Shown: one piece after another, positions 6,174 through 27,135 of the stretch
Layout: each line of letters starts with the position of its first letter
Numbering within the stretch: the first letter of the stretch is position 1
The notes under the pieces: model-generated
Told to the model about the DNA's origin: nothing
The model's input: only the letters and a program-made list of their open reading frames with translations
The model's database searches: none
Translations under genes and position numbers: made by a program
Assembly: GCF_030848575.1 (NCBI RefSeq)
Contig: NZ_JAVDDX010000005.1
Location: 1 to 64,000, forward strand
Direction of reading: 5' to 3'
DNA length: 64,000 nucleotides
Source of the DNA: Haloarcula sp. H-GB4
Lineage (GTDB): Archaea > Halobacteriota > Halobacteria > Halobacteriales > Haloarculaceae

Positions 6174-6551
6174 ATGAGTGATGTCATCTCGCTACGGCTG
6201 AGTGAAGAAGAGAGAGATCAGATAGTACGGCAGGCTCGGAAGGTAGATGAAGAGCCATCGGAATATGTTCTGAACGCTGTTGAACAGCGAATTGACCGTG
6301 AGTTGAAAGAGCAACGAGCCAATGAGTTGAATCTTGAGTCGGAACTTGGTGATCTAGCAGATATTGTCGCGGCAGAGGTTGACGGGGCAACAGACATCGA
6401 CACGGATCAGGAACTGTTCTACTCGGTAGCGCTGTGGGACTTAATTTCATCTGAGTTCCCAGCAGACAAGCGCGCTGCTGCGATGGAAGGTGCGTCAAAG
6501 AAAGTCCAAGAAGAGGTTGCAAACATCCGAAACAAGGAGGGTCAGGAATGA
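6174..6551 (+). CDS. Ribbon-helix-helix-like small protein 1 (relaxosome accessory candidate)
   Basis: 125 residues from ATG 6174; a GTG at 6165 overlapping the upstream stop is an alternative. The N-terminus (MSDVISLRLSEEERDQIVRQ) has the short beta-strand plus amphipathic-helix pattern of ribbon-helix-helix DNA-binding proteins, then a second helix ending near residue 45. The remainder is acidic and helical. It overlaps the next gene by ATGA. Many conjugative plasmids encode an RHH protein beside the relaxase that binds the transfer origin and recruits the relaxase; I infer that role here from position only. Confidence 0.65.
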   Translation: MSDVISLRLSEEERDQIVRQARKVDEEPSEYVLNAVEQRIDRELKEQRANELNLESELGDLADIVAAEVDGATDIDTDQELFYSVALWDLISSEFPADKRAAAMEGASKKVQEEVANIRNKEGQE

Positions 6552-7012
6552 CTGAGAGAGATACCCTACTCCAGATTTATACGACCGAAGCGTACAAAGA
6601 GTGGTTTGACCAGTTGGCTGACGAAGCGGGCACGTCCACCTCGAAATACGGACACGAGGTAATTGAAGAACACATCGACCGAGAAACTGGGGAGGACCAG
6701 TATCGCCGGTACAACACTGACACGAGCATAGAGCTACTGCTAGAAGAGGCACAGCGCGAGGTGAAAGAGCTGTTAGCGGAGTTTGAGTCTGGAACGATGG
6801 AGGAGGTGAAGACCATTCAGGAGGTCAGAACAGCATACACCATCGCGATCTGGAAACTGCTCCAAGATGACTACTCAGCTGAAAGGCGACGGCTAGCGCT
6901 GAAATTTGCTGGTGAGCATGTTGGACAAGATCCGTGCCTCGAATCAAGAGAGGAAGGCAACTCTGAGTCAGCTTCCCCGTCTGCTGTTGAATCGGCAGGT
7001 GAGAGCGCATGA
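6548..7012 (+). CDS. Ribbon-helix-helix-like small protein 2, paralogue of the preceding gene
   Basis: 154 residues, starting at an ATGA overlap with the preceding gene and ending in an ATGA overlap with the relaxase-like gene. The N-terminal 45 residues (TLLQIYTTEAYKEWFDQLAD and following) keep the strand-helix-helix pattern of the first protein, and both share a later pattern ending in an alanine-rich helix (AYTIAIWKLLQDDYSAERRR here, SVALWDLISSEFPADKRA in the partner). The two genes therefore look like an old tandem duplication, perhaps forming a heterodimer. The immediate coupling to the relaxase suggests a nicking accessory factor. No enzymatic motif is visible. Confidence 0.6.
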   Translation: MTERDTLLQIYTTEAYKEWFDQLADEAGTSTSKYGHEVIEEHIDRETGEDQYRRYNTDTSIELLLEEAQREVKELLAEFESGTMEEVKTIQEVRTAYTIAIWKLLQDDYSAERRRLALKFAGEHVGQDPCLESREEGNSESASPSAVESAGESA

Positions 7013-7764
7013 TGCTGAAAACAGACTATCAAGAAGGTGGTGCAGGGAACCTCGTCGATTACATTCAGCGTGATCGTGAACAGGACGCCGGAGCAACAGT
7101 TGACCTACGGAATCCCGCTGGCCGAGAACTGTCCGATCCAGAGGTGAATCGGTTTGTCGACAAGAGCCGAGAGTTCGGATTCCAGCGGCACATGATCGTC
7201 TCTCCTGACCCCACGGGACAATATTCGCCAGAAGAAGTCCGTGCCAACACCCGGGAATTCATGAACAGTGAGTTCGCCCAGCAGCCGACGACTGACTACG
7301 TGTATGGGGTCCACCGGGACACAGAGTTCCCACACGCACACATCGCGGCGACTGGCGAGCGCGCAGAGTTGGAGATGGACCGGGAAGACATCCGACAGCT
7401 ACGCGAACAAGCAGCCACCGCATACGAAGAGCCCGCTCGAACGCGAGACCCAACGGCCGCTGCTCGTGACTCACCAGACAGTCCCGTCCGAGTCGTAGAT
7501 CAAGAGGCCCGGGAGCAATACCACGAAGCGGAATTGTCGCTGAACCCCGAAGCTGAAAAAGCGCTCAAGCGGGCGACTGAGAAGAGTCAGCAGAAAGACG
7601 CCGGACAGCCCACGGCTGAGAAAGCGACTGGTGAGCGCCAAACTGAGCCACTCTCAGAACGTGCTGCGGAGAGGGCCGAAGAACAACCGGAACCTGAACG
7701 CGAACCCGAAGTTGATCTTGAACGCGAGCAGGAACCCGAGCGCGAAGTTGGGTGGTGGCAGTGA
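7009..7764 (+). CDS. Small HUH (VirD2/MobA-type) relaxase-like protein
   Basis: 251 residues. Motif III of MOBP/VirD2-type relaxases is clearly suggested by HRDTEFPHAHIA (His102, His109, His111), matching the family pattern H-x-D-x(4)-H-x-H used to bind a metal ion. Another His lies at 61 (RHMIVSPD), and an N-terminal tyrosine in LVDYIQRD (Tyr18) fits the catalytic Tyr of motif I. The catalytic domain fills residues 1-125; the rest is a Glu/Arg-rich tail. Relaxases nick one strand at oriT and pilot it through the coupling protein, whose gene follows with a GTGA overlap. At 251 residues it is shorter than most relaxases. Alternative: another HUH nuclease, but the context argues for transfer. 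Confidence 0.75.
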   Translation: MMLKTDYQEGGAGNLVDYIQRDREQDAGATVDLRNPAGRELSDPEVNRFVDKSREFGFQRHMIVSPDPTGQYSPEEVRANTREFMNSEFAQQPTTDYVYGVHRDTEFPHAHIAATGERAELEMDREDIRQLREQAATAYEEPARTRDPTAAARDSPDSPVRVVDQEAREQYHEAELSLNPEAEKALKRATEKSQQKDAGQPTAEKATGERQTEPLSERAAERAEEQPEPEREPEVDLEREQEPEREVGWWQ

Positions 7765-9980
7765 GTTCGAGTTCCTCTGCGCCACTAGGACAACGCTCTG
7801 GGGAGGTTCCGAATAGTCTCAAGTACGACAACGTCGTTGGGTTCGTCTGGGCCGGGTTCATGCTGCTGTTCCCGCCGATGATTGTCGATAGCGACAAGAT
7901 CCTCCCGAAGCGGTTCTGGGCGTGGCGCTACATCTACCTCGGGTTCGGACTGATTAGCGCGGCATTCTTCTATGACGTGCTGGTCCAGACACCCAGCGTC
8001 GCACTGCTGTTCCCGTTCGCACACGTTCTGGCTGCTATCTCGGTCGGGACACTGTTCGCTGACTTCACCGTGCCCGGATTGTCGCTGCCGATGGTCTCGT
8101 ACTCGACGACGGTGATTCTGTATGCTATTTCAGTCGGCATCGTGTTCTCCGGAGAACTGCTCCGCCGGACCTCGCCGGAAATGCTCGCGATGAACCGGTG
8201 GGACCACGACGACGGGGAGTCTGTCGTTCCACTGGAAGAGGTCTCTCACGAACACAACGAGGCTGAGATGCCGTTCACGCTCGATCAGGATGTCTCTACA
8301 GCCGTTGTGGGCGAGACTGGTTCGGGGAAGACGTCGATGATGAAGCTGCTGGCTTACCAGTTCCCGTACTACAGCGACACGGCGGTCATCGCCCACGATA
8401 CCGGCGAGGACTTCCAAGAGTTCTACGCGGAATTAGGCTTTGAGGTTCAGCGCATCCGCCACGAAGATAGCGATGTGGTCTGGAATCTGTTCAAGGATGC
8501 TGATTCGGAGTCAGACTTCCGTGAGGTCGCCGGCGCGATCTTCGGTGAGGCCGACGGCCATGACCCGTTCCACCGACCCGCCAAACAGACCTTCGCAGAG
8601 ATGCTGATGTATCTCCATCTCAGTGCGAAAAAGAACAATCGCCGCCATGCGCTCTGCCATGCCGATATCGTCTCCTTGCTCAACGAGGGCCACATTGCCC
8701 TCAAGAAAGCCCTCGACGAGTTTGACCGGCTGGACTCGGGTCACATTGACCCTGACAAGGGGAAAGGCGCACAGAATGTCTACCAGACGATCAAGGAGAA
8801 TGTCGACCCTGTCTTCACTGGCGACTTCGGGGAGTACGGGGAGTTCTCGCTGCAAGAGTACATCGAGAACCCGGAGGGGCGGGTCCTCATCATCGACTCG
8901 AACCCAACGGAACTGGAAACGCTCGGGCCGATGTACCAACTGCTCGTAGACTGGTCGATCCGCTATGCGATGAATTCTTCAAACCCGACGGTCCACATCC
9001 TCGACGAGATTGACGCGCTGCCGTCGCTCACGCAGGTAACGAACCTCACGGCCCGGGGACGGAAGCATAAGGCTCGCGCACTGGTCGGCGTCCAAACCAT
9101 CGGCCAGCTCAAGGACACGTACAGTACTATCTCTGGGATTGTGGGCAACTGCCCACAGGGAGTCTATTTCGGCCCGGGTGACACGGAGTCGACGGACTTT
9201 ATCCTCGACGAACTTGGCGAGAGTCGTCAGTACGACCGTTCTGAGATGGTGTCGATGAGCCACCAGGGGCGCGGCGAGAACCCACGAACGCAGGCTCGGG
9301 ACACGTACAAAGAGAAGGATAAGACGCCGATCACCTCTGGTCTGCTCCGAGACTTCCAGCCCGGTGAGTGCGTTGCCGTCTCTCGAACGACATGGGTCCA
9401 CGGCCAGTCGTATGAACTGGAGGACGTTCGCGATAGTCTTCCGGAACAGGGTGCGGAGTCACCGGGCAGTTCGGAACCGGAACCTTCCGAGGATGACACC
9501 GAACTGGAAGAACATGACAGTTGGCTCTCGCTCGCTCAGTCGCAACTCGGGGAATTGGTTCGTGAGTCAGACGATGAGATTGAAGACGACGACTCGACGA
9601 ACAGTGAGCCGGATCGTGACCATGACGTCGAGCCGACTGTCGACGCGACAGATGGGTTGGGCGACGACGATTCGAGCGACCCACTCGACCAGACAACAGC
9701 AAACACTGCTGTCACGTCTCCGGATGCAGACCACTCAAACCTATCAGATTCAGAAGACAAATCTACTGGTGTCGATCAAGGCCCAGACTCGGACGACAAC
9801 ACTGGGGGACTCTTCTCTGAGTCGGAGCCAAATCCCAGCATAGGCGGAACGGAATCTGCCGAGCAGGAAGGCGGTGAATCACCAACTGAATCAGACGCAG
9901 AGGGAGACTCAGATGAGACTGAAGATCGGGACGAAACCGAATCGAGAGAGCAGGGGCGAGACGTATCTGAGTTTATGTAA
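7761..9980 (+). CDS. virD4-like: VirD4/TraD-like type IV coupling ATPase
   Basis: About 739 residues from GTG 7761, chosen because it overlaps the relaxase stop (GTGA); GTG 7752 and 7755 are in frame upstream. Several hydrophobic helices occupy residues 25-135, then the ATPase domain with Walker A GETGSGKTSMM (about residue 183) and Walker B VHILDEIDALPS (about residue 411), followed by a conserved VGVQTIGQL segment typical of TraD/TrwB-type enzymes. Coupling proteins recruit the relaxase-DNA complex to the channel. Residues from about 555 to the end are a very acidic Ser/Asp/Glu tail. The last 20 codons recur, diverged, at 26387-26440, beyond the second secretion locus. Confidence 0.87.
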   Translation: MSSSSSAPLGQRSGEVPNSLKYDNVVGFVWAGFMLLFPPMIVDSDKILPKRFWAWRYIYLGFGLISAAFFYDVLVQTPSVALLFPFAHVLAAISVGTLFADFTVPGLSLPMVSYSTTVILYAISVGIVFSGELLRRTSPEMLAMNRWDHDDGESVVPLEEVSHEHNEAEMPFTLDQDVSTAVVGETGSGKTSMMKLLAYQFPYYSDTAVIAHDTGEDFQEFYAELGFEVQRIRHEDSDVVWNLFKDADSESDFREVAGAIFGEADGHDPFHRPAKQTFAEMLMYLHLSAKKNNRRHALCHADIVSLLNEGHIALKKALDEFDRLDSGHIDPDKGKGAQNVYQTIKENVDPVFTGDFGEYGEFSLQEYIENPEGRVLIIDSNPTELETLGPMYQLLVDWSIRYAMNSSNPTVHILDEIDALPSLTQVTNLTARGRKHKARALVGVQTIGQLKDTYSTISGIVGNCPQGVYFGPGDTESTDFILDELGESRQYDRSEMVSMSHQGRGENPRTQARDTYKEKDKTPITSGLLRDFQPGECVAVSRTTWVHGQSYELEDVRDSLPEQGAESPGSSEPEPSEDDTELEEHDSWLSLAQSQLGELVRESDDEIEDDDSTNSEPDRDHDVEPTVDATDGLGDDDSSDPLDQTTANTAVTSPDADHSNLSDSEDKSTGVDQGPDSDDNTGGLFSESEPNPSIGGTESAEQEGGESPTESDAEGDSDETEDRDETESREQGRDVSEFM

Positions 9981-10148
9981 CCGATCACTGCTATTGGCTC
10001 TTCTCTTTTGATAATAAAGCTAACACTTAGCTACCATTCTACGATCAGAATATCTGCCCTCTTCCTCATAATCAAATTTGTTCTGGGCGACTCTCCGCTC
10101 AAATATCAAAATTTGGTAAATTCCTTTATTTCTATCACTATCACCTCG

Positions 10149-10236
10149 AAATCGCAAGATGGCGTCGGTTTTGCCCGGTTTGAATCACCGGCACTGAATT
10201 ATCACCCTCCGACTGAACTAGTACCAAATCGCAAGA
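10149..10236 (+). other. Two AAATCGCAAGA motifs behind the coupling gene (possible transfer-origin element)
   Basis: AAATCGCAAGA occurs at 10149-10159 followed by TGGCGTCGG and at 10226-10236 followed by CGGCGGCGG. A third copy is at 26611-26621 in the right-hand repeat. Repeated short motifs in the non-coding DNA beside a relaxase operon are what an origin of transfer or accessory-protein binding region would look like. That function is inference; the repetition is seen directly. Confidence 0.4.
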
Positions 10237-10539
10237 CGGCGGCGGGGTAATTCACCGATATACCCGGATTGTTTACACTCTTTATCTTGTCCGCAGGGAT
10301 TCAGTCGTGAGGCGGATGAGTTTGACGAGAATACATAAGAAATAGAACATAGATATCGGTGGCGCATCGCGGAACTCGGATGGGGTGAGAGCTGCCCGCA
10401 CAGTCCTCGCAAGCACCTATTGGAATACAGATATATCTCGGCACACCTGGCAGTGTCTGAGTGGAACTGCACACGACGGGCCAACCCACACGAGAGTCAT
10501 GCGATTCCGGTGCCCCAAGCACGCCATCGGTTCACCGAC

Positions 10540-10705
10540 GTCCAGCGCCACGCCGATCACGGACCCATCCGAACTGAGCCAGAGTTGGCAGACCCACGTT
10601 CGAGTCGCGCTCACTTCGAGCCTTCATGGCGCACAACTCGCCACTCACTGACTGAGGTCCACACCACCTTGTCCGGAGCTTTGTATCTGAATCCTAATAG
10701 GTTAA
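10540..10705. repeat. 166-bp near-identical core of the flanking direct repeat (left copy)
   Basis: Begins GTCCAGCGCCACGCCGATCA and ends AATCCTAATAGGTTAA. It aligns without gaps to 26926-27091, with only scattered substitutions, and is much better conserved than the sequence on either side. It lies just beyond the truncated VirB6-like tail. The strong conservation suggests a recent exchange or a functional site such as an attachment or transfer site. Confidence 0.85.
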
Positions 10706-11000
10706 CCTCGCATTGGTTTCGTCGCAGATATTCATCGTAATTCGGGAGTTCGTTTGTGATGCCATTCCGGTTCTGGTAGTCTTGGTTGGCGTATTTATTG
10801 AGACCAATGGACTTGGCGACTCCGCTCTTGAAGCCGCCTGCGCCGCCGATGGCTGCAGCGGCGGCGATGGCGGGGAGGCCACCACTAGCCGTCCCAAGCA
10901 TGAGACCTGTACCACCACTCGTTGAGGTGGCTAATGGGTCCTGAACCGTGGTATTGGTCGCTGATGAACGGACACGAAACGGTCGCTGACACCGGTTTGG
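10611..11000 (-). pseudogene. Relic of the C-terminal tail of the VirB6-like protein at 13288-15135
   Basis: In the minus-strand frame the segment contains LMLGTASGGLPAIAAAAAIG followed by GGAGG and VAKSIGL, nearly identical to residues about 540-575 of the 615-residue protein. Upstream it reads SATNTTVQDPLATSTSGG, matching that protein near residue 395, so about 115 residues between are missing. After the tail the frame runs on into the conserved repeat and stops at 10611. It has no credible start and no membrane domain. It lies after a paralogue of the gene that follows the intact copy, so a block of genes was duplicated and this end decayed. Confidence 0.75.
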
Positions 11001-11025
11001 AATGGTTGCCGTCGTATTTGGTGCT

Positions 11026-11748
11026 CTATGTTGCACCGATACCATCGCCGACGATGTTGAGTTTCCCGATACCTTCGACGCGATACTCTGCCGGTGGGTC
11101 TTCGCCCATGTTGAGGTAGATATCCCGAATTTGGGCCATCAGGTGTGACATAATCACATCAGCGAATTCTTCTTCATACTCGAACCCGTCAGCGAATTCC
11201 AGTTCCGGCATCGCAAAGATGAGCTCCTTGTTGGGGTACGACGGATTCGAGCCGATGCGGTGCTCACTACCATCGGTGAGTTTGTAGTCGATAACCACGT
11301 CTGACACGTCGAGTACTTCGCTATCATCGAAGTGGACGGCTAAGTTGACGATAATCGACTCTTGGTTGACGGGACTATCGTCGATGTACTGCATCGGGTT
11401 TCTGAGCGCTTCGTAGTACTCCCGGAAATCTTCTAAGAATTGTTCCATGGGGTAGTTGCTGAATGCCTCGATACCAGCCTTGATGTGTTCTGGCCGCCAC
11501 ATCGGGCTCAGGATATCCGCCTCCGGGAACTCCTGTTGGGCCGCGAACCGTGCCCGAGCTTCGACCTGAGTCATTATTCGCTGCTCTTCATCGGTTCGTT
11601 CTTCTTTTTTATGTGGGTAATCTTCATTCTCATGACCTCGGACTGTACCATCCCACATTACAACTATCCAATGCCGTGAACCGTTTTCATCATATACCTC
11701 TACTCCAATTCCCTGTTCTGAGTCAGAACCAGTTATTTTTGTTTTCAT
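11026..11748 (-). CDS. Uncharacterised 240-residue protein, paralogue of 12558-13298
   Basis: Begins MKTKITGSDSEQ and shares with its 246-residue partner an N-terminal beta-rich domain (VEVYDENGSRHWIVVMWDGT), a shared ERTDEEQRIM segment, a YPMEQFLEDFREYYEA helix and a strongly conserved end (QIRDIYLNMGEDPPAEYRVE). It is acidic, lacks a signal peptide or membrane helix, and so is probably cytoplasmic. It follows the small Gly/Ala-rich gene with a 3-nt gap. I do not recognise the family. Its duplication beside secretion genes would suit an immunity or chaperone-like role, but nothing in the sequence proves this. Confidence 0.8.
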   Translation of the reverse strand: MKTKITGSDSEQGIGVEVYDENGSRHWIVVMWDGTVRGHENEDYPHKKEERTDEEQRIMTQVEARARFAAQQEFPEADILSPMWRPEHIKAGIEAFSNYPMEQFLEDFREYYEALRNPMQYIDDSPVNQESIIVNLAVHFDDSEVLDVSDVVIDYKLTDGSEHRIGSNPSYPNKELIFAMPELEFADGFEYEEEFADVIMSHLMAQIRDIYLNMGEDPPAEYRVEGIGKLNIVGDGIGAT

Positions 11749-12557: not shown

Positions 12558-13298
12558 TCAGCCATCCGGCCGGGAGACAAGGCCATCGTGAAGGGTCGCC
12601 GTTTTGCCGATGCCTTCGACCTGGTATTCGGTGGGTGGTTCTTCGCCCATGTTGAGGTAGATGTCCCGAATCTGGCACATGAGATTGCTGACGACGAGTG
12701 CTTGGAATGACTCGGGGAACTCGAAATCATCACGTTCGAACGTTAGTGCTGGGAGCGTGACGACATGCGAGTCAGCGTGTGCAGGTTCATCAACATCTCG
12801 ATTCGTTACCTGCGTTTCCCCATTCTTGTCCGTGTATTGAATGGTTGTTGCTGAGGAGCCGATAAACTCATTATCATCTGAAATGTGGATGAGTTTTCGA
12901 ACCCGGTCAACGGATTGGACATCGTCGTTGATGCGCTCGCCCGTGTGGTCCCGAACGGCATCGTAATACTCGCGAAAGTGTTCAGCAAATGTCTCCGTGG
13001 GCAGGGTACGCATAACTTCCATCGCTCGCTCTATCTCGCCCGGGAGCCAGGCCGGGTCTTCAATAATGTCTTCGTCTTCGAAGTGAGCGTGTGCCGCGTA
13101 TTCAGCGCGTATGCGGACCTGCTGCATGATCCGCTCTTGTTCGTCCGTGCGCTCTGAAGCCTCAAGAGGGTATGTCTCTTGTGCGTGATTGAGTACTGTC
13201 CCATCCCAATTTATTCTGATTATGTGTCTGTCGCCGTTATTATCGTATACTTCTACACTGCAATCTTCCTCGTCATGGCCGCGTATTTCAGTTTTCAT
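12558..13298 (-). CDS. Uncharacterised 246-residue protein, paralogue of 11026-11748
   Basis: Begins MKTEIRGHDEED and ends close to the shared string QIRDIYLNMGEEPPTEYQVE, nearly the same as in its partner at 11026. The start overlaps the end of the VirB6-like gene by 11 bp, so translation of the two is coupled. Acidic, soluble-looking, no catalytic motif seen. The repeated arrangement (membrane or hydrophobic protein followed at once by this family, here and at 11752/11026) suggests it works with the product of the gene just before it. Confidence 0.82.
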   Translation of the reverse strand: MKTEIRGHDEEDCSVEVYDNNGDRHIIRINWDGTVLNHAQETYPLEASERTDEQERIMQQVRIRAEYAAHAHFEDEDIIEDPAWLPGEIERAMEVMRTLPTETFAEHFREYYDAVRDHTGERINDDVQSVDRVRKLIHISDDNEFIGSSATTIQYTDKNGETQVTNRDVDEPAHADSHVVTLPALTFERDDFEFPESFQALVVSNLMCQIRDIYLNMGEEPPTEYQVEGIGKTATLHDGLVSRPDG

Positions 13299-15135
13299 AA
13301 TCTTTCACATTTTCACTGTCGAAGCCACTACCAGCTTCAGCATCGCCAGTCGCTCTCTGAGTGTCTTTCTGGCCCGGTGAGAAGCCAACCCAATCGCGGA
13401 CACTGTCAGCGACATTGCTGGCGTCTTTCGGAACTTCGTTTTTGATACCATCCAAGCTCTGGTAGTCTCTGTCGAGCTTATCGAGACCAATGGACTTGGC
13501 GACTCCGGTCCCGAAGCCGCCTGCGCCGCCGATAGCCGCAGCGGCGGCAATGGCGGGGAGGCCACCACTAGCCGTCCCAAGCATGAGACCTGCACCAGCA
13601 ATCCCGCCTTTTGCGATTGACTTGAACGCACCTTTCTTGCCGCCGGCTTTGAGGTGGTCGCTGAAGTCTTTGTCGCCAATTTCGCCGATGCCTTCGCTCA
13701 GCGCATCGATGTTGTCATTCTCGAAGGCCTGTTCGATAATTTCTTGTTGGACCTCCTCTGATTTCTGGCGGAACTCGTAGCTGCTCATCCCGTCGAGGTC
13801 ATGTTTCTGGGCAGGGTCCTCATCCGTCCCGTGGCCCGGTTTATCTCTGATGTCCCGCACGGACTCCATCTGGTATGAGGAGTCGCTGACCGACGGCTCT
13901 GATGGCTGTGAGTCAGCACTGCCACCATCCGGAGCCACTGCTGAGGTGGCTGACAGCTCCTGGGCCGTGGTATCGGTCGCTGCTGAACCCGGCTGGCCGT
14001 CATCAGATCTCCCACCCGTTGGGTCGGTCGAGGGGACAACGCCTCCAGACGACGGCCCGGAGCCGCCACCCCCACTGCCACCGATGCCGACCGCGCCAGC
14101 AACTGTGTTTTTGCCCTTCGACAGGCCCTTCGAGGCACTCCCCATAGCCATCTGGGCAGCGCCACCCAGCGAACCAGCGAACATCGACAGGGTGTACATT
14201 ATGGTCAGGCCAGCCATCGCAGCAATTGTCATGGCTGGCATTGCCATCTGAATCAATGGGTTCGGACCGCTGGCGAAGACCGCTGTGGTGGTCCCACCTG
14301 TTGCTCCGCCGCTGAAGGTTGAGAGTGTTCTGGAGGTGAATTTTGTGCCAACGGCGAAGATACCCGCGATGAGTATCCCACCCGGAATCAACATCCCGGT
14401 TGCTTTGAACAGTTTCTCGGCCAGTTCTTTCCCGTACTTGAGCGGCCCAACGTCAGCCACCCAGAAGAGTATCAACAGCGGGAACAGCCCGTATGTGAGA
14501 CACACCACCACCTGTCTGGCGACCAGGACGACGAACAACAGGACCTGTGAGAGCACCACGACGAGCAAAATCGCGATTCCGTACAGCAACAGCACAAACG
14601 ACCCTGCGGAGGTCTGTGCAACAGGATTGCTCGGCAAGTTAGCGTTCAGACTGACGCCTTTGAGGAACAGGTCGATACTCTCATTCGAGATCGCAAACGC
14701 CCACGCGAAGGCGCCACGACTAAACAGCGTGCCAGACCCGGGTGGGTTGACGATGAACAGCGACAGTGTCGCCGCCAACGCTCGTGACATAAACCGATAC
14801 GGGTCCATCTTCTCGTTGTCAGGGAACAACTGGAACAGTCCCAGATATGCCAGTCCGAAGACTCCCAACAACGAGAAGTAAATCACCATCGAGAGATCCC
14901 ACATGCTCTGGAACTCGTCAAGCAACGACGGCTCCAGTTGTAGCATCTCGGAAAGGACGCTCGAAAACAGGATCTCGATCAGCTCGAACACTGCTTTGAA
15001 CAGTTGTTCATTAATCCACGTGATGAGACTCTCAAGCCCGATGTCAACGACCAGAAGCGGAGCTACGAGTGACACAGCCAGCCGCTGACCGTGCGTTGAC
15101 TCGTCCTCCAGACGCCCTGGCCCCGACCCTGCCAT
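13288..15135 (-). CDS. VirB6/TrbL-like membrane protein with long variable tail
   Basis: 615 residues. About seven hydrophobic segments lie between residues 20 and 345. It shares many signature strings with the next gene (15195-16571): FQLFP followed by DPYRF, IVNPPG, GAFAWAF, LLVARQVVV, and GPLKYG, so they are clear paralogues. Residues about 350-500 are a Ser/Gly/Asp-rich linker, then comes a Gly/Ala hydrophobic tail (residues 535-570) that recurs as a relic at 10611-11000. VirB6-type proteins form part of the membrane channel of type IV secretion systems; the extended tail may be exposed or translocated. Function is by topology and context. Confidence 0.75.
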   Translation of the reverse strand: MAGSGPGRLEDESTHGQRLAVSLVAPLLVVDIGLESLITWINEQLFKAVFELIEILFSSVLSEMLQLEPSLLDEFQSMWDLSMVIYFSLLGVFGLAYLGLFQLFPDNEKMDPYRFMSRALAATLSLFIVNPPGSGTLFSRGAFAWAFAISNESIDLFLKGVSLNANLPSNPVAQTSAGSFVLLLYGIAILLVVVLSQVLLFVVLVARQVVVCLTYGLFPLLILFWVADVGPLKYGKELAEKLFKATGMLIPGGILIAGIFAVGTKFTSRTLSTFSGGATGGTTTAVFASGPNPLIQMAMPAMTIAAMAGLTIMYTLSMFAGSLGGAAQMAMGSASKGLSKGKNTVAGAVGIGGSGGGGSGPSSGGVVPSTDPTGGRSDDGQPGSAATDTTAQELSATSAVAPDGGSADSQPSEPSVSDSSYQMESVRDIRDKPGHGTDEDPAQKHDLDGMSSYEFRQKSEEVQQEIIEQAFENDNIDALSEGIGEIGDKDFSDHLKAGGKKGAFKSIAKGGIAGAGLMLGTASGGLPAIAAAAAIGGAGGFGTGVAKSIGLDKLDRDYQSLDGIKNEVPKDASNVADSVRDWVGFSPGQKDTQRATGDAEAGSGFDSENVKDYEN

Positions 15136-15194
15136 CTACTTCATTTTTATATTTCTTTGTATTAATATTTTCTATACAATACTAAAATAATTCC

Positions 15195-16571
15195 TCAGTC
15201 GGATGTCCTTCGCTGTGATCGTGAGCCTGTTTCGGAGTCCGCCGCGGAATCACCTGATTCGGCCTGCTGTTCGGATTGAGCGGTCGAGACATCCGTCAGC
15301 GATTGTGCGCTTGGGGACATGGTACTGGCAGACCTACCCGAGGCTTGATTGCCAGCAGTTCCACCCGGCTTAACGCCAGCCTTCGCTCGCTTCTTGACGC
15401 CTTTTTTCGCTTGGTTCATCCCTTTCTTTGCAGTCGCTTTCACGCCCTTCTTGACTCCCTTCTTTGCAACCATTTTCCCGCCCTGTCCAGCGAGTGATGC
15501 GGCAGCGCTTGCACCACTTGTTGCAACCGCGGCACCGACCTGTGCGATGCCTGTGACAGCACTTCCCACAACGCCTAACATCTGTGTCAGCATCAGTGTC
15601 GGGAGGACGAGAATCCCGATGATGATGACGGCTTTGATAAGGAAATTAAGGATCACATCGCCACCACCTGAGCTAGCGAACACACCGCCCTGGACAGGCG
15701 GTCCACTTACTGCTGATTGAGCCGGTGGCGTTCCACCAGCGAATATTTGACTACTTCCACTGATGAGGCCGAGTCCGACGGTAAATACGGCCGCTATGAG
15801 GATACCACCAGCAAGAAGCATCGTCGAGGTCTTGAACATTTTCGACGCGAGCTTACTCCCGTATTTGAGCGGCCCATGGTCGACTACCCACAAGATAATA
15901 AGTACCGGATACAGCCCATATGTGACCAGAACTATCACTTGTCGTGCCACGAGCAGGACTAGCAAAACGATTTCAGCAAGAAGTATTACCTTGCCGATGA
16001 GGATGCCCGCTGCAAGCAACATAAAGGGACCGCTCAGCGCACCAGCGATTGTGCCACTCTGGAAGGAAATAGATGTGCCAACCTGACTGAGATACCATTC
16101 GGAGAGATTATTTGTGACGACAAAGGCCCACGCAAATGCTCCCTTGCCGAAGAGATTCGCACCCCAGCCCGGTGGATTCACAATCCAAATTGATGTCGTT
16201 GCAGCGAGAGCACGAACACCAAACCGGTAGGGATCCGTCTTCTCTGTACTGGGGAACAACTGGAACGACCCAAAGATTGATACTGCATACAACGAAAGCA
16301 GCGCGAGATGGATTGTCACGCTGACCTGATATATTGATTCGAACTGCTGGAGGTACGAAGGATCGATCCGGAGAAACTCTTCTATGATATCTGAGAATAG
16401 CTTCACTATAAGATCGAATATGGCGGCGAATACGCTGTTAGCGAAATCTCGAAGGGGATCTCTGAGACCGGCAAGAACCAGTGGGACCGGCTGGTCGGTA
16501 GCGGCGGGGAAGACAGTTAGCGGCAACTGAGTGTGTTCTAGCACAGACCTGATTTGAAAGGTGAAACTCAT
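15195..16571 (-). CDS. VirB6/TrbL-like membrane protein, paralogue of 13288-15135
   Basis: 458 residues with the same core as its neighbour: a helical N-terminus, FQLFPSTEKTDPYRF, IVNPPGWG, GAFAWAF, LLVARQVIVLVTYGL and DHGPLKYG, then two further hydrophobic segments near residues 290-330. The tail is different: a Lys-rich stretch of repeated KKGVK units (residues 375-415) and an acidic Ser-rich end. The basic tail could contact DNA or the ATPase. It sits 59 bp upstream of its paralogue and 52 bp downstream of the third membrane protein, in one operon. Confidence 0.75.
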   Translation of the reverse strand: MSFTFQIRSVLEHTQLPLTVFPAATDQPVPLVLAGLRDPLRDFANSVFAAIFDLIVKLFSDIIEEFLRIDPSYLQQFESIYQVSVTIHLALLSLYAVSIFGSFQLFPSTEKTDPYRFGVRALAATTSIWIVNPPGWGANLFGKGAFAWAFVVTNNLSEWYLSQVGTSISFQSGTIAGALSGPFMLLAAGILIGKVILLAEIVLLVLLVARQVIVLVTYGLYPVLIILWVVDHGPLKYGSKLASKMFKTSTMLLAGGILIAAVFTVGLGLISGSSQIFAGGTPPAQSAVSGPPVQGGVFASSGGGDVILNFLIKAVIIIGILVLPTLMLTQMLGVVGSAVTGIAQVGAAVATSGASAAASLAGQGGKMVAKKGVKKGVKATAKKGMNQAKKGVKKRAKAGVKPGGTAGNQASGRSASTMSPSAQSLTDVSTAQSEQQAESGDSAADSETGSRSQRRTSD

Positions 16572-16623
16572 TGTCTTCCCCCGGAGCAGAACTGTCGATA
16601 CGCGCTGGCTGCACAGGTACCTG

Positions 16624-17622
16624 TCATAATAGATCCATGACTAGTTTGAACCCGATGAAGTCGATTATCAGTAAGGGTGTGATGAGGAAAAAGAAGTCCT
16701 CAATATACTGTATGAGCTGTCCATGAGTCGAGAACTGTCCATCAGGGACAGAATCATTGACCGTGGCCCCACCGGCAAACGTTCCGCTGGAGGCACTATC
16801 ATACGTGCTGAAATCAGTTAGCAGCGTACTTGACCAAATTAACGCAGTCACTAGTATGCCAAACAACATTAACTTTGCACTCACTTTGATGAATTTTTCA
16901 CCCATGGCATTGACACGCTTCCATGGCCCGACGCTCACGAGTTTAAATGCAAGTAATAGCGGCAACAGCGCGTACGTTACGTAGATAATCAACATACGCA
17001 GAACGAGTATCAGTATCAGGCCAAGTCCAGTGATGAGCATAAGACCTGCAGCAAGTAATCCCCAGTTGTAGCCGACGTACAATCCGACTTCGTCCATTAC
17101 AGCCCGGGTAATTGTTACGCCAATACTGAGATCATAGGATGTTTGATAGTACAGCCCAGTGAGTGTGTGCGTGAACGCAACAAAAAACGCTATCAGCTCA
17201 CGTGACATCAAGATTGCTACGAAGTACTTTGTCACCTTTTCCAGATGCAACTGTAGATCAGCTGAATCCGCTCCTGGGAAATACTGCGCCATCAAGAGGA
17301 TATACAGAAACGACAGGCCAGCCACTGCCACATACGCACTGAATGATATCTTCCAGAGCGTATTTAATACGCTAACGTTCGCCGGATTGGGGTAAAAAAG
17401 GAACATCTCATAACCGAGAGAGAATATCATCGACAGAGTGTCCAGAAGCCCCGAAACGGCGTTCGTCAGAAACCATTCGATTCCGTTTTTGAACAGTTGG
17501 TATAGGTCGGGGATGCCCGGGAAGTCAATCTGAAGTAGCAACAACGCAGCCACTACCCCACGAGTGACAGTGGCTTGCTCTGCAGTCCCTTCCGATTTTT
17601 TTCTCCTCCCGTCAATTACCAT
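16624..17622 (-). CDS. Third VirB6/TrbL-like membrane protein, first gene of the leftward operon
   Basis: 332 residues with six or seven hydrophobic helices. It is more distant from the other two but keeps the same plan: an amphipathic N-terminal helix, a long helix after FYPNPANVSVLNTLWKIS, a central LILVLRMLIIYVTYALLPLL block, the counterpart of the LLVARQVVV helix, and GPWKR where the others have GPLKYG. It has no long tail. It faces the S16-protease gene across a 95-bp divergent promoter region, so both arms of the locus can be switched together. Confidence 0.72.
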   Translation of the reverse strand: MVIDGRRKKSEGTAEQATVTRGVVAALLLLQIDFPGIPDLYQLFKNGIEWFLTNAVSGLLDTLSMIFSLGYEMFLFYPNPANVSVLNTLWKISFSAYVAVAGLSFLYILLMAQYFPGADSADLQLHLEKVTKYFVAILMSRELIAFFVAFTHTLTGLYYQTSYDLSIGVTITRAVMDEVGLYVGYNWGLLAAGLMLITGLGLILILVLRMLIIYVTYALLPLLLAFKLVSVGPWKRVNAMGEKFIKVSAKLMLFGILVTALIWSSTLLTDFSTYDSASSGTFAGGATVNDSVPDGQFSTHGQLIQYIEDFFFLITPLLIIDFIGFKLVMDLL

Positions 17623-17717
17623 TTCAAATATTCGGTCCGTGAATTTAGATGTTTATTCCACTAAGGTAAAGGTTATTATATACCAGATACTTCTTTGTAT
17701 ATGCAGAGGATTGTCCT
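17623..17717. promoter_or_regulatory. Divergent promoter region between the two arms of the second secretion locus
   Basis: Only 95 bp separate the start of the leftward VirB6-like gene (17622) from the GTG of the rightward S16 gene (17718). The region is AT-rich. A TATA-like TTATATACC at 17675-17683 is placed to give a short leader for the rightward gene; GAATAAACAT on the minus strand (about 17650-17659) could serve the leftward operon. Confidence 0.5.
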
Positions 17718-18446
17718 GTGAATACGGACCGTACACTCATCCTATTGCTGGTTGGCATCGTTGTTCTGAATCTGAGCTGGACAGGCGCAGTCAATAACCG
17801 GACCGGATCGCTTGAAAGTCGCGTTGAGACTGTTGAACAGGATCAAGAATCTATGGCCGTCTTTGCAGGTACGAACCAATCACGCAGTGATACGACATCT
17901 GCCACGGCGTCATTGTATGCGTACAACACAGCCACAGGCAAGGCAACGGTCGTGCCGGCGGAAATAGATGCTGTCCCAGCCAGCGGCGTATATCTGGACG
18001 TAGCGCCGGTCGCACATACTGCTACGGTTCAGCGTTCCATCGTGCATGCATGGTCAGTAGCCAACGAGAGCCAGTCTCCGCCACCATATCGTGGCACTGT
18101 CATCAGGATCAACCCGCCAGAGAGTTGGGATACCGTTGGCGGTGGGAGTGCTGCACTTTCATTGGCATCTGGATTTGCTGCAACGAACCCCTGTATTGAA
18201 TTGAACGGAAGCGTCGCCATGACTGGCGGTCTGACGCGGTCTGGGACGGTTATTGAGGTGCAACACGTGCGTGAAAAGGCCGTTGCAGCAAAAGATCGGG
18301 GCGTTACTGTGTTTGTGGTTCCACAGGGACAAGCAGTGGATGTGGATGGCATTCGAGTCGTTGAGGTCGCAACCTTCGCCGAAGCGACCAACTACACTCT
18401 GGGACGAACTCCCGTATGCCGGTCTGAGGCGGCAAAACTAAATTGA
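17718..18446 (+). CDS. Exported Lon-type (S16) serine protease domain protein
   Basis: 242 residues from GTG 17718. A hydrophobic segment at residues 7-22 acts as signal anchor, so the domain should lie outside the cell. Residues 125-225 match the Lon protease domain: GGGSAALSLASGFA with Ser144 at the position of the Lon nucleophile, the VAMTGGLTRSGTV strand pair (AMTGEITLRG in Lon), and VREKAVAAKDRGV with Lys187 at the catalytic lysine. The Ser-Lys distance is 43 residues, the same as Ser679-Lys722 in E. coli Lon. There is no AAA+ module and no PDZ domain. A protease here could process the pilin candidate downstream or remodel surface proteins; that is inference. Confidence 0.8.
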   Translation: MNTDRTLILLLVGIVVLNLSWTGAVNNRTGSLESRVETVEQDQESMAVFAGTNQSRSDTTSATASLYAYNTATGKATVVPAEIDAVPASGVYLDVAPVAHTATVQRSIVHAWSVANESQSPPPYRGTVIRINPPESWDTVGGGSAALSLASGFAATNPCIELNGSVAMTGGLTRSGTVIEVQHVREKAVAAKDRGVTVFVVPQGQAVDVDGIRVVEVATFAEATNYTLGRTPVCRSEAAKLN

Positions 18447-18497
18447 GTATGCCGGATAAATGTTAATGCATGCATGATAGTTCAAAAACCACTAGAC

Positions 18498-18507
18498 TTA
18501 TTTTATA
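18498..18507 (+). promoter_or_regulatory. TATA element of the pilin-candidate gene
   Basis: TTATTTTATA is centred about 25-26 nt before the ATG at 18527, as expected for a nearly leaderless haloarchaeal transcript. This supports ATG 18527 over the in-frame ATG 21 nt further on. Confidence 0.55.
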
Positions 18508-18526
18508 GCAGCAAAATCTGTATAAT

Positions 18527-18880
18527 ATGGCACAGTGGAGTGCTGGTATGGAAAGAATTGACACGAAAGAAATATTCAAGATCATGATACTGACATTCGT
18601 GGTCTTGAACGTCTTCGTAAGCCCCGTCGCAGCAGATACCGCCGATAAACAGAAAAAAGAGCTCAAAAACCAAATGAATCAGGTCGGTGATTTCCTTGCG
18701 ATTGTCATCGCTGCAGTCGCAATTCCGAACGGTGCTTTCGGTGTGTTCCAGTACATGACAGCTGGCACCGACAGCGAACAGAGCGACACGGGACGGAAAC
18801 GAATCCGAAACTCCTTCATTGGCGTGGCAGGGGCTACCGCTGTGATGACAGCTGTACAGTTGTTGAACGCTCTCATCTAA
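18527..18880 (+). CDS. VirB2/TrbC-like pilin candidate
   Basis: 117 residues. A hydrophobic signal segment (residues 17-34) ends in SPVAADTA, a plausible cleavage site. The mature part has a charged stretch and two hydrophobic helices (about 52-78, FLAIVIAAVAIPNGAFGVFQ, and 95-116, SFIGVAGATAVMTAVQLLNA) separated by a short loop rich in charged residues. Size, signal peptide and the two-helix hairpin are the hallmarks of VirB2/TrbC pilins and of archaeal relatives such as CedA1. It lies between the exported protease and the large surface protein. Sequence similarity to bacterial pilins is too low to judge by eye, so this rests on architecture and context. Confidence 0.65.
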   Translation: MAQWSAGMERIDTKEIFKIMILTFVVLNVFVSPVAADTADKQKKELKNQMNQVGDFLAIVIAAVAIPNGAFGVFQYMTAGTDSEQSDTGRKRIRNSFIGVAGATAVMTAVQLLNALI

Positions 18881-18913
18881 GGTGTAGTAAGCGGTCACGT
18901 CAGTTTCAATATC

Positions 18914-20710
18914 ATGCATCAACTTATCTGGACCTCAGGAATCATTTTTTTCGTGGTCCTTGCCCTGTCGCTACCTGCACAGGGGACGTTATCAGGGGCA
19001 GAAGAGCGAGTTTTCCTCTCCGGAGATGTCGACAAAGACCCAGACTCAGTGTCCGGTGACCTGAGTGACGGGGGCAAGACATTTGCGAAGATTGGCGATT
19101 TGACATTCCGTACAAGTAAGCCCCAGTACGAAATTACGGACACCACTTTGCATGATTACCAACGGAACAGCTTAGATCGGTTAGACACCGGTGTGCGCCA
19201 CGCACGGGCCATGCCGCAATCCGATCAGCGAAACACTGCACTAATAAAAAATGCACACGTAACGTTACTCGGGATTCACGGTGGTGCACAACCGCAATTC
19301 AGTTCCAGGTCATCACCGATGTTTATTGGCGCCGACGGAACTGTCCTGAACCACGCTGACTACCGCGTTCCAGAAGACATTCCTAGAGACGGTAGCTGTT
19401 CTGGCAAAGATTACGACACTTCTGACTGGGATGTTGACGAAGACGGGAGAGACGAGGAAGTCTACATCGATGGCTCCCAGACGTGCTGGGAGTACGAACT
19501 GCACACAGAGATGAAACGCTGGGTTACTGTTGATGGGAGGCGCATATCCGGAGGTGATACGATCTCTTACAGCGGCCTATCGTCGAATTCACCCCAACAA
19601 CTCACTGTCCACGCCGAAATCTCAGTCAGAGTTGAACGCACAACAAAAAAATACAACTGGGATCCACACGATGGATATGGCGATGCTCCATCTGATGGAA
19701 CTTGGCAGCGATCACAGACGGATGTTGATGACCGGTACCGGTTCGATCAGATCCAGGTTAGTGATAGTCAAGAAGTCGTTGTGACAGACGCGGGCGAGAT
19801 TGAGGTGGAACAGACTGTTGTTGAAACCGATGGAAATATGAAACATCTTATTCTCACGATACAGGGACCACGGAACGGGCAGACTGTGTCTCCATCGAAA
19901 CTCGAAGACCGGAAACTCTGGAGCTATCTGGCGATGGGTTCCGACTATTCAGTAGATGGCACGTGGCGGACGTATTCAACGCGCCAGTATGATTCAGTGA
20001 ATCTATATGAGCCAGATGGTGATGTTTCGATGGATTCGAACCCGCCACACGTTCCACAGACGCAGCTGGTTGGGATGGACAGAAAACCGACAGTGACAGC
20101 GGTCGGATCTGGCTCCGCTAAGACTCAGGTTATCGGATATCAAGGGCACAACATCGATGTTTCACAATCCCTCCAATCCGGCGTGGAGATTACACCAAGA
20201 CAACCAGTTGCATACCACCGCATTGTCATCACCAATGCTGAACAGCCTGTGACAGATCTAGTCACGATTCATGGACAATCGGTACCCGTAGATGTTGATA
20301 AGCGAGTGGAACGGCGCAAACCGAGTGTGAAAATAAGGCAAGTCGGCTCCGGTAATTCGTTACAGATTCACGTTGAGGACCCTGAGACAGGCCACCCCAT
20401 CTCAGGCCGCAAAGTGAACCTTCAGGGAGCAGTCCCTAAGTCACCTACTGCCTCAGGCAATGCTGTAACAGACGCAAACGGAGATGTGGAAGCCACCCGT
20501 GTGAACGCATATGTCCAAGCTACTGTTGACCACGACGACTTTCAGTCCGTCTCGAATAGAGCGTTCTATGACAAGTCGACAGCGGCAAGGACATTCCTTC
20601 CGGATGTCCTCTTGCTGTCACGGCTCCATTCGCTTGTATTGACGCTTTCGTTGATAACACCGCTTCTGTTCTTGTACGGTTACATCCGGCACTTTGGCTT
20701 CTTCGAGTGA
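18914..20710 (+). CDS. Large secreted, C-terminally anchored surface protein
   Basis: 598 residues. N-terminal signal segment (residues 4-23) and a C-terminal membrane helix (about 572-590, ending FLYGY) leave nearly all of the protein outside the cell. The ectodomain is beta-rich; residues 478-545 (VEDPETGHPISGRKVNLQGA onwards) resemble carboxypeptidase-regulatory or Ig-like repeats with a DANGD turn. The final helix and tail correspond to the partial gene at 1-357. It starts 33 nt after the pilin candidate, so both are probably co-transcribed. I suggest a structural or adhesive surface component of the secretion apparatus. Confidence 0.8.
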   Translation: MHQLIWTSGIIFFVVLALSLPAQGTLSGAEERVFLSGDVDKDPDSVSGDLSDGGKTFAKIGDLTFRTSKPQYEITDTTLHDYQRNSLDRLDTGVRHARAMPQSDQRNTALIKNAHVTLLGIHGGAQPQFSSRSSPMFIGADGTVLNHADYRVPEDIPRDGSCSGKDYDTSDWDVDEDGRDEEVYIDGSQTCWEYELHTEMKRWVTVDGRRISGGDTISYSGLSSNSPQQLTVHAEISVRVERTTKKYNWDPHDGYGDAPSDGTWQRSQTDVDDRYRFDQIQVSDSQEVVVTDAGEIEVEQTVVETDGNMKHLILTIQGPRNGQTVSPSKLEDRKLWSYLAMGSDYSVDGTWRTYSTRQYDSVNLYEPDGDVSMDSNPPHVPQTQLVGMDRKPTVTAVGSGSAKTQVIGYQGHNIDVSQSLQSGVEITPRQPVAYHRIVITNAEQPVTDLVTIHGQSVPVDVDKRVERRKPSVKIRQVGSGNSLQIHVEDPETGHPISGRKVNLQGAVPKSPTASGNAVTDANGDVEATRVNAYVQATVDHDDFQSVSNRAFYDKSTAARTFLPDVLLLSRLHSLVLTLSLITPLLFLYGYIRHFGFFE

Positions 20711-22060
20711 GTTGTCTCAGGACATTACTCACCCAGTTCACACACGGCTGAAAGCGGGGTCAAGCGTTCATTCGTTTCTCGTCAGCTCATGCGACAACCC
20801 GGCTACACGGACGAGTATAGTCTTCTTACTGCGACCGGCCTCAGACGCCTTCTTCAGAACGTACATGTCGCGACTTCCTGTATCGAAGTTAGATACGTTT
20901 GATGATATGGTATCCAGCTGGCGGGAGCTAACCTGTGACAGTGGGGGCTGCATAAGTTCTGAATAAATCGGGAGAGATGACGTGAGCACAACTATCCTGG
21001 TAGTCTGCTGGTTTCCACGCACTGCTGTCGGCGTTTTTCATTGGGTCTAACAGTCGCACTAATCACTCAAGCGGTAATTCCCGATCGAGCTGACTCACTG
21101 GCAGGAGATTCATACTATCCGTTCGCGTTCATCAGTGCCTTCACAGATGACTGGATATATTCGACAGTCTCTACGAAATACAGGTGGCCATCACTGGTTG
21201 ACAGTCGAAACTCTGTGAGAGACAACGCCGCAGCTACTGGATACCGCCGGTTGTATCGTAAACGGACGAGACGACGTGGTTGCCAAAGGATACGCTGAGG
21301 ATTTACTTCCTGATACAGTGGTCGATCAAAGGTTCGCCACTGTGTCTGTGGCTGATTTTCTAGATGTTCTCTCAGTGCACTGGTGCCCCAATTCGGATCC
21401 AGATATCCCTGTGGGTCTTTAGCAATTATACGCTGTTCGGTGTGATCTGTACTGTTGCATAACGGTACCTGAATGGGGAAGCGGTAATTAAGCCGCCGTG
21501 TGCCCGGCTGGGACTTATTCTTTCAAAACTGGTATCACTTCACTCTGGCTCAGAGGTCGCGTTTCAACACAGCAGCGTGCTCCGCTGAAAAATATACCAT
21601 TTGACGGTAGTAGCAGACACTAACATACCAAACTTCTCGGAGTGTATTAGGTAAGCAAACACGGAGTGTGTGAATGACGTGTGTTGGTATCTCTACCGGC
21701 GGAGTGGGTGAGTGGACGGGGCTTGACCCGGAGCAGTTCATAGGCGCCTCTGGTATGCTGGCCGGTATGCGTTTCACATACGTCGTGACGGTAAACTGAC
21801 GAACGGGGAGTTTGCTGAATCGCTCTACCTGTGGACCGCAGGTGCATGACTATACTTAGTCGGAGATTTCACACTGCTACCGGGAGATAGTCGCTCCCAA
21901 CGAAGGCCAACCACTGGACTATTAACACAGAAACGATGCCATCCTGGGTATGTTCTGACTGCCATCGCTACTAGAAGAGTAACACCTGTGAAAGAGTGTG
22001 AACGTGTCGAGCGTTGCTCCAAGTCAGTGCATACCGACGAGTGGTCATCGCCATTATTTT
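20711..22060. other. 1.35-kb gap with gene relics but no intact gene
   Basis: No convincing complete gene. Some stretches look coding but are broken. From about 21041 one frame runs to 21211 (DDWIYSTVSTKYRWPSL), and a second frame continues to 21420 (DTAGCIVNGRDDVVAKGYAE and then ATVSVADFLDVLS), as expected after a frameshift. At 21674-21799 a 41-codon frame ends RFTYVVTVN, while an overlapping frame ends LTNGEFAESLYLWTAGA at 21849. I cannot name the ancestral genes. The stretch separates the rightward surface-protein operon from the leftward VirB4 operon. Confidence 0.5.
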
Positions 22061-24457: not shown

Positions 24458-24464
24458 CGGAACT

Positions 24465-25586: not shown

Positions 25587-25590
25587 AGTG

Positions 25591-26088
25591 TTATTGTGTC
25601 TTGTCGCCGCTAATTGTGCCTATCTGCTGTGCCCTATCTGAACTCTCTTCATTGGCAAAAGCACCTGTCGCATCTTGGTAAGGAATAGGGGTCCCGTCAG
25701 ACACGGATGTATCCCATTCAAAATCTTCCTCACATGTTTCTGACTGAATTCGCGAGGCTGTGTGAACCCTATTTTCGATTGAAACAGAATCGCGCTCACG
25801 CGTCCGTGGTTTCAAATAATACTCGTTTGGTGTAAGTCGACGCTTAACCGCAGCAGGTGCCCATTCTAGTGGTTGCTGGCCCTCAGGTGTCCTGATTACG
25901 ACTGCAATTACACCAAGAAGCGACACCCCGATCAATGCTAGGGTTGCCACCAGCGGAATTTGGTCTATGAACAAACTGGGAAATACCATTACAAGCGGCA
26001 CTGCTCCAAGTATGACTAACTCGTCAAATGTCAGTCCCATAAAAACATCTGTCCGGAGTATCTCTCCTGGAATCGGTACCGCTTTCAT
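25591..26088 (-). CDS. VirB3/PrgI-like membrane protein
   Basis: 165 residues. Two hydrophobic helices at about 26-42 and 47-66 follow a short N-terminus containing GLTFDELVILG, then a basic segment (AAVKRRLTPNEYYLKPRTRE) and a polar tail. The helix pair plus basic stretch matches the N-terminal head of the 1084-residue VirB4 protein (LGELILFLIPPF onwards). First gene of the leftward three-gene ATPase operon. VirB3/PrgI proteins tether VirB4 to the membrane. Confidence 0.68.
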   Translation of the reverse strand: MKAVPIPGEILRTDVFMGLTFDELVILGAVPLVMVFPSLFIDQIPLVATLALIGVSLLGVIAVVIRTPEGQQPLEWAPAAVKRRLTPNEYYLKPRTRERDSVSIENRVHTASRIQSETCEEDFEWDTSVSDGTPIPYQDATGAFANEESSDRAQQIGTISGDKTQ

Positions 26089-26299: not shown

Positions 26300-26383
26300 G
26301 GACAACCGAATCACCCTGCTTCAACTCCTTCGATTTAGCCAACTATACCGACGGTATCTAGTGATTCAACAGAGCCGACGAGA

Positions 26384-27135
26384 ATGAAGATCGGGACGAG
26401 ACTGAGTCAAGAGAAGAGCGACATAGACCATCGGAGTTCATGTAACCCATATCAATTAGCTCGCCTTCTAAACCTAAGAATTTCTATACATTCCTATTTC
26501 TGTGACGTTGTGATGCTACTCTTCAAGTTGGTAACTGGGTACTGTCGAGACTGCGGTATTCCAATTACATCAGAAAAATTGAAATTACCTTATTCCGACC
26601 TATATATGCGAAATCGCAAGACTACGTGGGTATAAATCGTGCAAAATCCGACACAGACTACACTCTTTACCTTGCCATGCACATCTCGGCGGAAGCGCGA
26701 TAATCATGAGCAAAAATCCATAAGATGTGGAACATAGAAGTAGGTGGTTGATCGCGGAATCCTACCAGAGCGAAGACTGGCAGACTCACCCCCTCAAGAG
26801 AACCTATTAGGAGAAGGATATGTATCCCACAACCCGGGACCCTCATCGTGACTTGGACACCGTGGGCAGCCCTCACATGAGGCCGTCCGATCTCACTGAG
26901 TCACGCGAGTGACCGACTCACAGATGTCCAGCGCCACGCCGATCACGGTCCCATCCGAACTGAGCCAGAGCTGGCAGACCCACGTTCGAGTCGCGCTCAC
27001 TTCGAGCCCTCGTAGCGCATAACTCATCGCTCACTGACTGGGGACCACACCACCTTGTCCGGAGGTTTGTATCTGAATCCTAATAGGTTAAAATCACGTT
27101 GCTTTCGTCTCCTTCTGCTATCGTAATTTAGAGCG
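26384..27135. repeat. Right copy of the long direct repeat, with a coupling-gene relic
   Basis: Same order of elements as 9920-10755: a relic of the end of the coupling-protein gene (EDRDETESRE... ending SEFM and a TAA at 26436-26438), an AT-rich spacer, AAATCGCAAGA at 26611-26621, TACACTCTTTA, then the conserved core. The spacer is highly diverged, the core is not. The coupling-gene relic has no upstream part. This implies that another copy of the first conjugation operon, or its end, once adjoined this point. Confidence 0.78.
26926..27091. repeat. 166-bp near-identical core of the flanking direct repeat (right copy)
   Basis: Gap-free match to 10540-10705 in the same orientation, from GTCCAGCGCC to CTAATAGGTTAA. 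Similarity falls off sharply after about 27135. Confidence 0.85.

Follow-up and report, generated by a model that had tools for sequence, protein, structure and literature searches.

Do haloarchaeal plasmids carry a conjugation system that is led by a relaxase, as in bacteria? This question is raised by a locus in the first 64,000 nucleotides (the window) of a 172,765-bp contig of Haloarcula sp. H-GB4 (NZ_JAVDDX010000005.1). The plus strand encodes a protein of 251 amino acids, which an earlier analysis made from the letters of the DNA alone, here called the sequence-only reading, had taken for a small HUH relaxase at the head of a bacterial-style transfer system. The protein belongs to an operon with the order lipoprotein, VirB6-like protein, VirB4-like ATPase, two ribbon-helix-helix (RHH) proteins termed RHH1 and RHH2, relaxase and VirD4-like coupling protein, in which several genes overlap (Table 1), and a candidate origin of transfer (oriT) lies downstream. 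This region very probably represents the transfer module of a conjugative plasmid from Haloarcula, in which the minimal HUH relaxase would lead single-strand transfer.

The relaxase and its active site

The 251-residue protein matches the Pfam family PF03432 (Relaxase) with an E-value of 2.4e-7 and 31.5 bits, thereby exceeding the curated cut-off of 24.6, and the same family is matched by all 27 members of an alignment that covers Haloarcula and other haloarchaeal genera; its identity as a relaxase thus goes beyond chance similarity. Tyr18, His61 and the motif H102-x-D104-x(4)-H109-x-H111 are present exactly as the sequence-only reading had described them. Tyr18 is the catalytic tyrosine of motif I, and His102, His109 and His111 make up the three-histidine metal site. 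The expectation that these residues are conserved in homologues holds throughout for Tyr18 and His102 (27/27 each), whereas His109 (24/27), His111 (23/27) and His61 (23/27) vary in a few clades. One clade that lacks His61 also has the last histidine replaced by glutamine (HUQ), and another one possesses an aspartate before the last U-H (D-U-H) and a different spacing; the HUQ and D-U-H variants (loci L025-L027, L028; L029, L036, L038) keep Tyr18 and His102.

The HUH core that had been assumed for the protein is also found in its AlphaFold2 (AF2) model, whose predicted fold is that of HUH relaxases and aligns best with solved relaxases. The core is modelled confidently, with a predicted local distance difference test score (pLDDT) of 86-95 for blocks between residues 30 and 140. 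In the best row of a VIA re-alignment, model residues 1-146 are aligned with MobA of R1162 (2ns6) with a Z-score of 10.9 and a root-mean-square deviation of 3.1 over 135 aligned residues. Relaxases occupy the 18 top rows of the VIA list (Z 8.1-10.9); a viral HUH replication protein follows in row 19 (Z 7.9), and the best unrelated structure reaches 6.6. Furthermore, an hhalign profile comparison, which covered the MOBP set among the MOB families, aligned the haloarchaeal family with five bacterial MOBP-type relaxases with a probability of 98.4% over 118 columns and 16% identity; the nearest bacterial tblastn matches are 25-31% identical. Among NCBIfam models, the protein matches MobP1 and TraI/MobP and no other, both far below their cut-offs. 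MobP1 scores best, however with 24 bits versus a subfamily cut-off of 200, and the relaxase is therefore named MOBP-like and not MobP1. Searching the sequences of solved structures with the protein or its profile retrieved no relaxase, and the viral contigs searched contained no relative. Judged from its sequence and its structural model, the open reading frame (ORF) is a HUH relaxase of minimal size.

A candidate origin of transfer

Nine Haloarcula sequences share an invariant CTTTA-CTTG-C block downstream of the coupling-protein gene. This block and the published MOBP nick consensus (C/T)ATCCTG(C/T) (PMC3772185) were combined into the search pattern TTTANCYTGYC; the short pattern TATCYTGY is too unspecific by itself and was therefore lengthened. 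The scan comprised 27 dereplicated loci, with relaxase identities below 85%, and two kinds of zone, one around the RHH start (500 bp before it and 100 bp into the gene) and one covering the 600 bp that follow the coupling gene. The pattern lies beside the RHH-relaxase-coupling triad in 17 of the 27 loci, each time on the strand of the relaxase gene and never on the opposite strand, with an expectation of about 0.2 matches per strand (background of 5 hits on two strands in 393 kb outside the zones); reversed or permuted controls gave 0 matches. In the whole H-GB4 genome (4.19 Mb), TTTAHCYTGYC occurs five times, namely at three relaxase operons, at a second copy in the window and at one site elsewhere, and the looser TTTANCYTGYC occurs eight times, with four occurrences common to both sets. 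A nucleotide profile built from ten close Haloarcula sites detects the same place in diverged loci, with E-values from 1e-6 to 0.016 downstream of coupling genes of the genus Haloarcula, and yields weak, correctly placed matches in some other loci.

TTTANCYTG/YC, in which the slash marks the predicted cut, is proposed as a candidate oriT nick (nic) site and is new here; in the open-access literature, no paper on a haloarchaeal oriT was found, judged by titles and the beginnings of abstracts. The window sequence TATCTTGT differs by one base from YATCCTGY, and another clade has TTTAACCTGCC. The cut position is predicted from the MOBP consensus (PMC3772185), and the comparison of nic sites rests on this published consensus, because a simple pattern scan recovered no MOBP-like site upstream of R751 traJ. 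Two direct repeats lie upstream of nic, within 300 bp 3' of the coupling-protein gene.

In the process that may take place at this site, RHH1, RHH2 or both would bind repeats in the oriT, which begins some 150 bp and ends some 310 bp past the coupling-protein gene. The relaxase, with a metal presumably held by His102, His109 and His111, would cut the plus strand at TTTATCTTG/TC via Tyr18. It would remain on the new 5' end; relaxase and single strand would then be delivered to the VirD4-like coupling protein and pass through a VirB4/VirB6-like channel.

Several observations weigh against relaxase-led transfer from this site. Some homologues substitute His109 or His111, the AF2 model has a mean pLDDT of 70.5 with a disordered C-terminal third, and a Foldseek search of the model against the PDB gave no match with an E-value below 0.001; since the Foldseek scores are not significant by themselves, the fold evidence is that of the VIA re-alignment. 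The exact pattern is missing beside the triad in 10 of the 27 loci, and it was shaped partly on the same loci on which it was scored. An inverted repeat ends 2-8 bases before TTTA at several sites and beats shuffled sequences in some loci; it is clear in part of the loci and absent at the window site, and is therefore not taken as a defining feature. Mantel tests speak for the system in that they link relaxase divergence to the nic variant and to the coupling protein (r 0.51 and 0.75, p 0.0005), but they do not prove recognition, because linked modules share descent. Finally, eight loci (L090, L092, L094, L114-L117 and L119) have the nick-like site upstream of the RHH gene on the gene strand, an arrangement opposite to that of Haloarcula, and the mobilisation genes would therefore enter the recipient first. 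Typical bacterial conjugative plasmids are not known to send their mobilisation genes first.

Operon, distribution and competing explanations

The coupling protein clearly exceeds the cut-offs of PF10412 (TrwB_AAD_bind; 104 bits versus 20.5) and PF12696 (TraG-D_C; 42 bits versus 22). Its gene may start at GTG 7752 or at GTG 7761, and the GTGA overlap with the relaxase stop codon noticed in the sequence-only reading exists if the latter is used. Further overlaps are TAATG between the VirB6-like and VirB4-like genes and ATGA both between RHH1 and RHH2 and between RHH2 and the relaxase gene. The upstream neighbours named by that reading, the VirB4-like, VirB6-like and both RHH genes, are present. 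The VirB6 label is weak, because Pfam and NCBIfam profile searches gave no family match and the label is drawn from the place of the gene and the hydrophobicity of its product. The VirB4-like ATPase stays below the CD1110 VirB4 equivalog cut-off of 325 bits and reaches 19.4 versus 21 bits for PF03135. RHH1 resembles solved DUF1778 RHH antitoxins (profile A6, E 6e-5). In the RHH2 family, nine of ten members match PF21983, the NikA-like mobilisation accessory family (best E 4.2e-6). RHH2 of the window itself has no Pfam match, PF21983 included, and its AF2 model is too weak to establish the RHH fold (predicted template modelling score 0.29). Matches of RHH2 to designed trefoil-knot proteins were disregarded, as they fall in the helical C-terminal region. 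With no VirB7-VirB11 seen, the set of transfer genes is minimal, and the VirB4 similarity places it nearer to CD1110/monoderm-type systems than to a full Gram-negative set. The idea of a relaxase-driven, bacterial-style system is supported by fold, residues and a one-strand nick-like site, with the qualification that the set is small and nearer to the monoderm kind.

Table 1. Transfer genes, candidate oriT elements and components of the second cluster in the window
Feature	Position	Strand	Remarks
3' end of a gene encoding about 690 amino acids	1..353	+	cut by contig end; blastn match to pNG500 (L077) 13049-13406, inside a 2073-bp coding sequence
Putative Tat lipoprotein, 282 amino acids	354..1202	+	ORF; position kept across the Haloarcula operons examined
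VirB6-like polytopic membrane protein, 569 amino acids	1205..2914	+	position conserved
VirB4-like ATPase, 1084 amino acids	2914..6168	+	NF045971 (CD1110 family), E 3.1e-40, 138 bits
RHH1, accessory protein	6174..6551	+	NikA-like PF21983, E 0.0016, below cut-off
RHH2, accessory protein	6548..7012	+	adjoins relaxase gene
HUH relaxase, MOBP-like, 251 amino acids	7009..7764	+	PF03432, fold, active-site conservation, profile comparison
VirD4/TraD-like type IV coupling protein, 742 amino acids	7752..9980	+	Pfam domains
Candidate oriT region, non-coding	10120..10320	+	conserved in Haloarcula plasmids; counterpart in diverged loci found by close-relative profile
oriT direct repeat 1, AAATCGCAAGATGGCGTCGG	10149..10168	+	candidate accessory-protein site; conserved block in 9 Haloarcula sequences
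oriT direct repeat 2, AAATCGCAAGACGGCGGCGG	10226..10245	+	block conserved among 9 Haloarcula sequences
Candidate nic site, TTTATCTTG/TC	10281..10291	+	predicted cut between 10289 and 10290
Lon-C-domain protein	17718-18446		second cluster
T4SS_pilin-like protein	18527-18880		second cluster
VirB4-like protein, 798 amino acids	22061-24457		second cluster
PrgI-like protein	25591-26088		second cluster
Second candidate nic site, TTTACCTTGCC	26666..26676	+	inside second copy of coupling-protein 3' end and oriT region

The relaxase family occurs in 33 of 391 Halobacteria genomes and 11 of 86 genera, and in 17 of the 24 Haloarcula genomes of the same sample. Across a phylum-wide sample of 295 genomes, it was found in two Haloarcula members and nowhere else, and PF03432 is nearly absent (3/295). 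The closest named relatives are Haloarcula genomes and plasmids, in agreement with the haloarchaeal origin that had been read from the sequence. RHH, relaxase and VirD4-like genes are directly consecutive in most of about 40 loci. In Haloarcula, this triad is joined to VirB4-like, VirB6-like and lipoprotein genes; outside Haloarcula it mostly occurs without them, an arrangement like that of mobilisable plasmids. One genome encodes relaxase and coupling protein as a fusion in a single frame of 689 amino acids (L089, 7854-9923), in which both Pfam families exceed their cut-offs and which carries an HUQ motif where others have HUH. On balance, it seems probable that haloarchaea hold their own diversified branch of MOBP-like relaxosomes, in which an RHH protein, a very small relaxase and a coupling protein are combined with a matching TTTANCYTG/YC oriT. 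These relaxosomes would drive plasmids that transmit themselves as well as, in other genera, mobilisable ones with their own coupling protein, and some branches would cut with HUQ or D-U-H metal sites. MOB-suite types 21 of 22 relaxase-bearing plasmids as non-mobilizable, and plasmid typing therefore misses this relaxase family.

Two more relaxase operons are present in the H-GB4 genome, one on contig C7 and one at the ends of contig C6; since the relaxase gene spans the two ends, C6 is probably circular, a plasmid of about 135 kb. A 16.7-kb Halomarina plasmid (L080) carries, in addition to the triad, genes annotated as terminase and minor head protein, and is possibly a phage-plasmid with its own mobilisation module.

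The HUH fold is common to relaxases and initiators of rolling-circle replication (Rep), so that the protein might be a Rep and the nick-like site a plasmid replication origin. The first non-relaxase in the VIA list is such a viral Rep, and one relaxase homologue weakly matches the replication-associated G2P model (E 0.035). However, the constant linkage to a coupling protein, including one fusion, the NikA-like RHH neighbour and the relaxases among the top fold matches argue for a role in transfer, and some of these plasmids have their own Cdc6/Orc1 gene nearby; we consider a Rep highly improbable. A different objection accepts the relaxase and concerns the site: TTTANCYTGYC may serve the module as a promoter or as a site for a regulator, with the true oriT located elsewhere. 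TTTA is similar to an archaeal TATA element, and in a fair share of the loci outside Haloarcula the site directly precedes the RHH gene, as a promoter would. The Haloarcula site, however, lies about 300 bp beyond the end of the final gene, and in the window no gene follows closely on that strand; moreover, the CYTGYC half, which fits the MOBP nick consensus, is as strongly conserved as the TTTA half, which makes a promoter an unlikely explanation.

Genes and site might also persist in a decayed or domesticated remnant that has lost DNA transfer. The literature found does not report mating of these plasmids, many distant loci are without a nearby VirB4 gene and some coupling genes are split, all of which would fit a remnant; but Haloarcula plasmids of many species have kept seven intact and tightly packed ORFs together with conserved relaxase and oriT sequences, and decay is thus given very little weight. 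With relaxase-led transfer as the preferred explanation, the intact active site and the predicted nick site make such single-strand transfer in archaeal plasmids directly testable in culturable Haloarcula, and haloarchaeal genetics would, if it is true, gain a natural oriT for mobilisation.

Known systems and a second cluster in the window

The presence of a relaxase gene on Haloarcula plasmids is not new, since it was implied in 2011 and noted in 2019. Guglielmini et al. (PMC3158045) list pNG500 of Haloarcula marismortui as the single conjugative plasmid of its kind that their survey revealed in archaea, and they suspect that the others use relaxases of unknown type; the survey classes the plasmid, and the available part of the paper does not analyse its active site, fold, oriT or spread. 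pNG500 carries the same operon as the window, with a relaxase that is 91% identical and an oriT region that is 78.5% identical. The available part of the 2019 paper (PMC6333295) mentions in passing the relaxase and TraD-like genes of pNYT1 (H. taiwanensis) and of an H. californiae contig, which correspond to those of the window; it calls the trait rare among archaeal plasmids and includes no study of mechanism or oriT. In papers from 2023 to 2025, the relaxases of archaeal conjugation are described as unknown (PMC9905601, PMC11389934, PMC12857230). Sulfolobales conjugative plasmids, the Ced system and Thermococcus pT33-3 share archaeal VirB4-/VirD4-like or related ATPases with the window; unlike in the window, however, no relaxase has been recognised in them (PMC9905601, PMC12857230).

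Among bacterial systems, the haloarchaeal relaxases resemble those of the MOBP family (TraI of RP4/R751, VirD2, MobP1 of IncX plasmids) in their early catalytic tyrosine, the HxDx(n)HxH motif and the RHH partner, and the order of RHH, relaxase and coupling-protein genes equals the traJ-traI-coupling protein order of the IncP plasmid R751. They differ from the MOBP relaxases by their very short length (about 170-260 amino acids), their low identity and the HUQ or D-U-H sites of some clades.

The counterpart on pNG500 of the truncated gene at the start of the window encodes 690 amino acids and has a pilin gene 5' of it, whose product scores 24.8 bits for PF18895 (T4SS_pilin), slightly below the cut-off of 26.6; a type IV secretion system (T4SS) pilin-like gene stands before the relatives of this gene. 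A second T4SS-like cluster occupies window positions 13288-26088, mostly on the opposite strand, and holds three large VirB6-like proteins in addition to the components listed in Table 1. Its VirB4-like protein has relatives on more than 200 plasmids, many of them haloarchaeal. At about 26378-27321, next to this cluster, the 3' end of the coupling-protein gene and the oriT region are present a second time, in a copy that is 93-94% identical to a Haloarcula sebkhae contig. The second oriT copy is oriented like the first one, and the second cluster is therefore flanked by two direct oriT copies, which suggests recombination or cointegration at oriT. In addition, a minus-strand fragment at 10611-11045 corresponds to the C-terminal region of the VirB6-like protein encoded at 13288-15135 and is apparently a duplication remnant.

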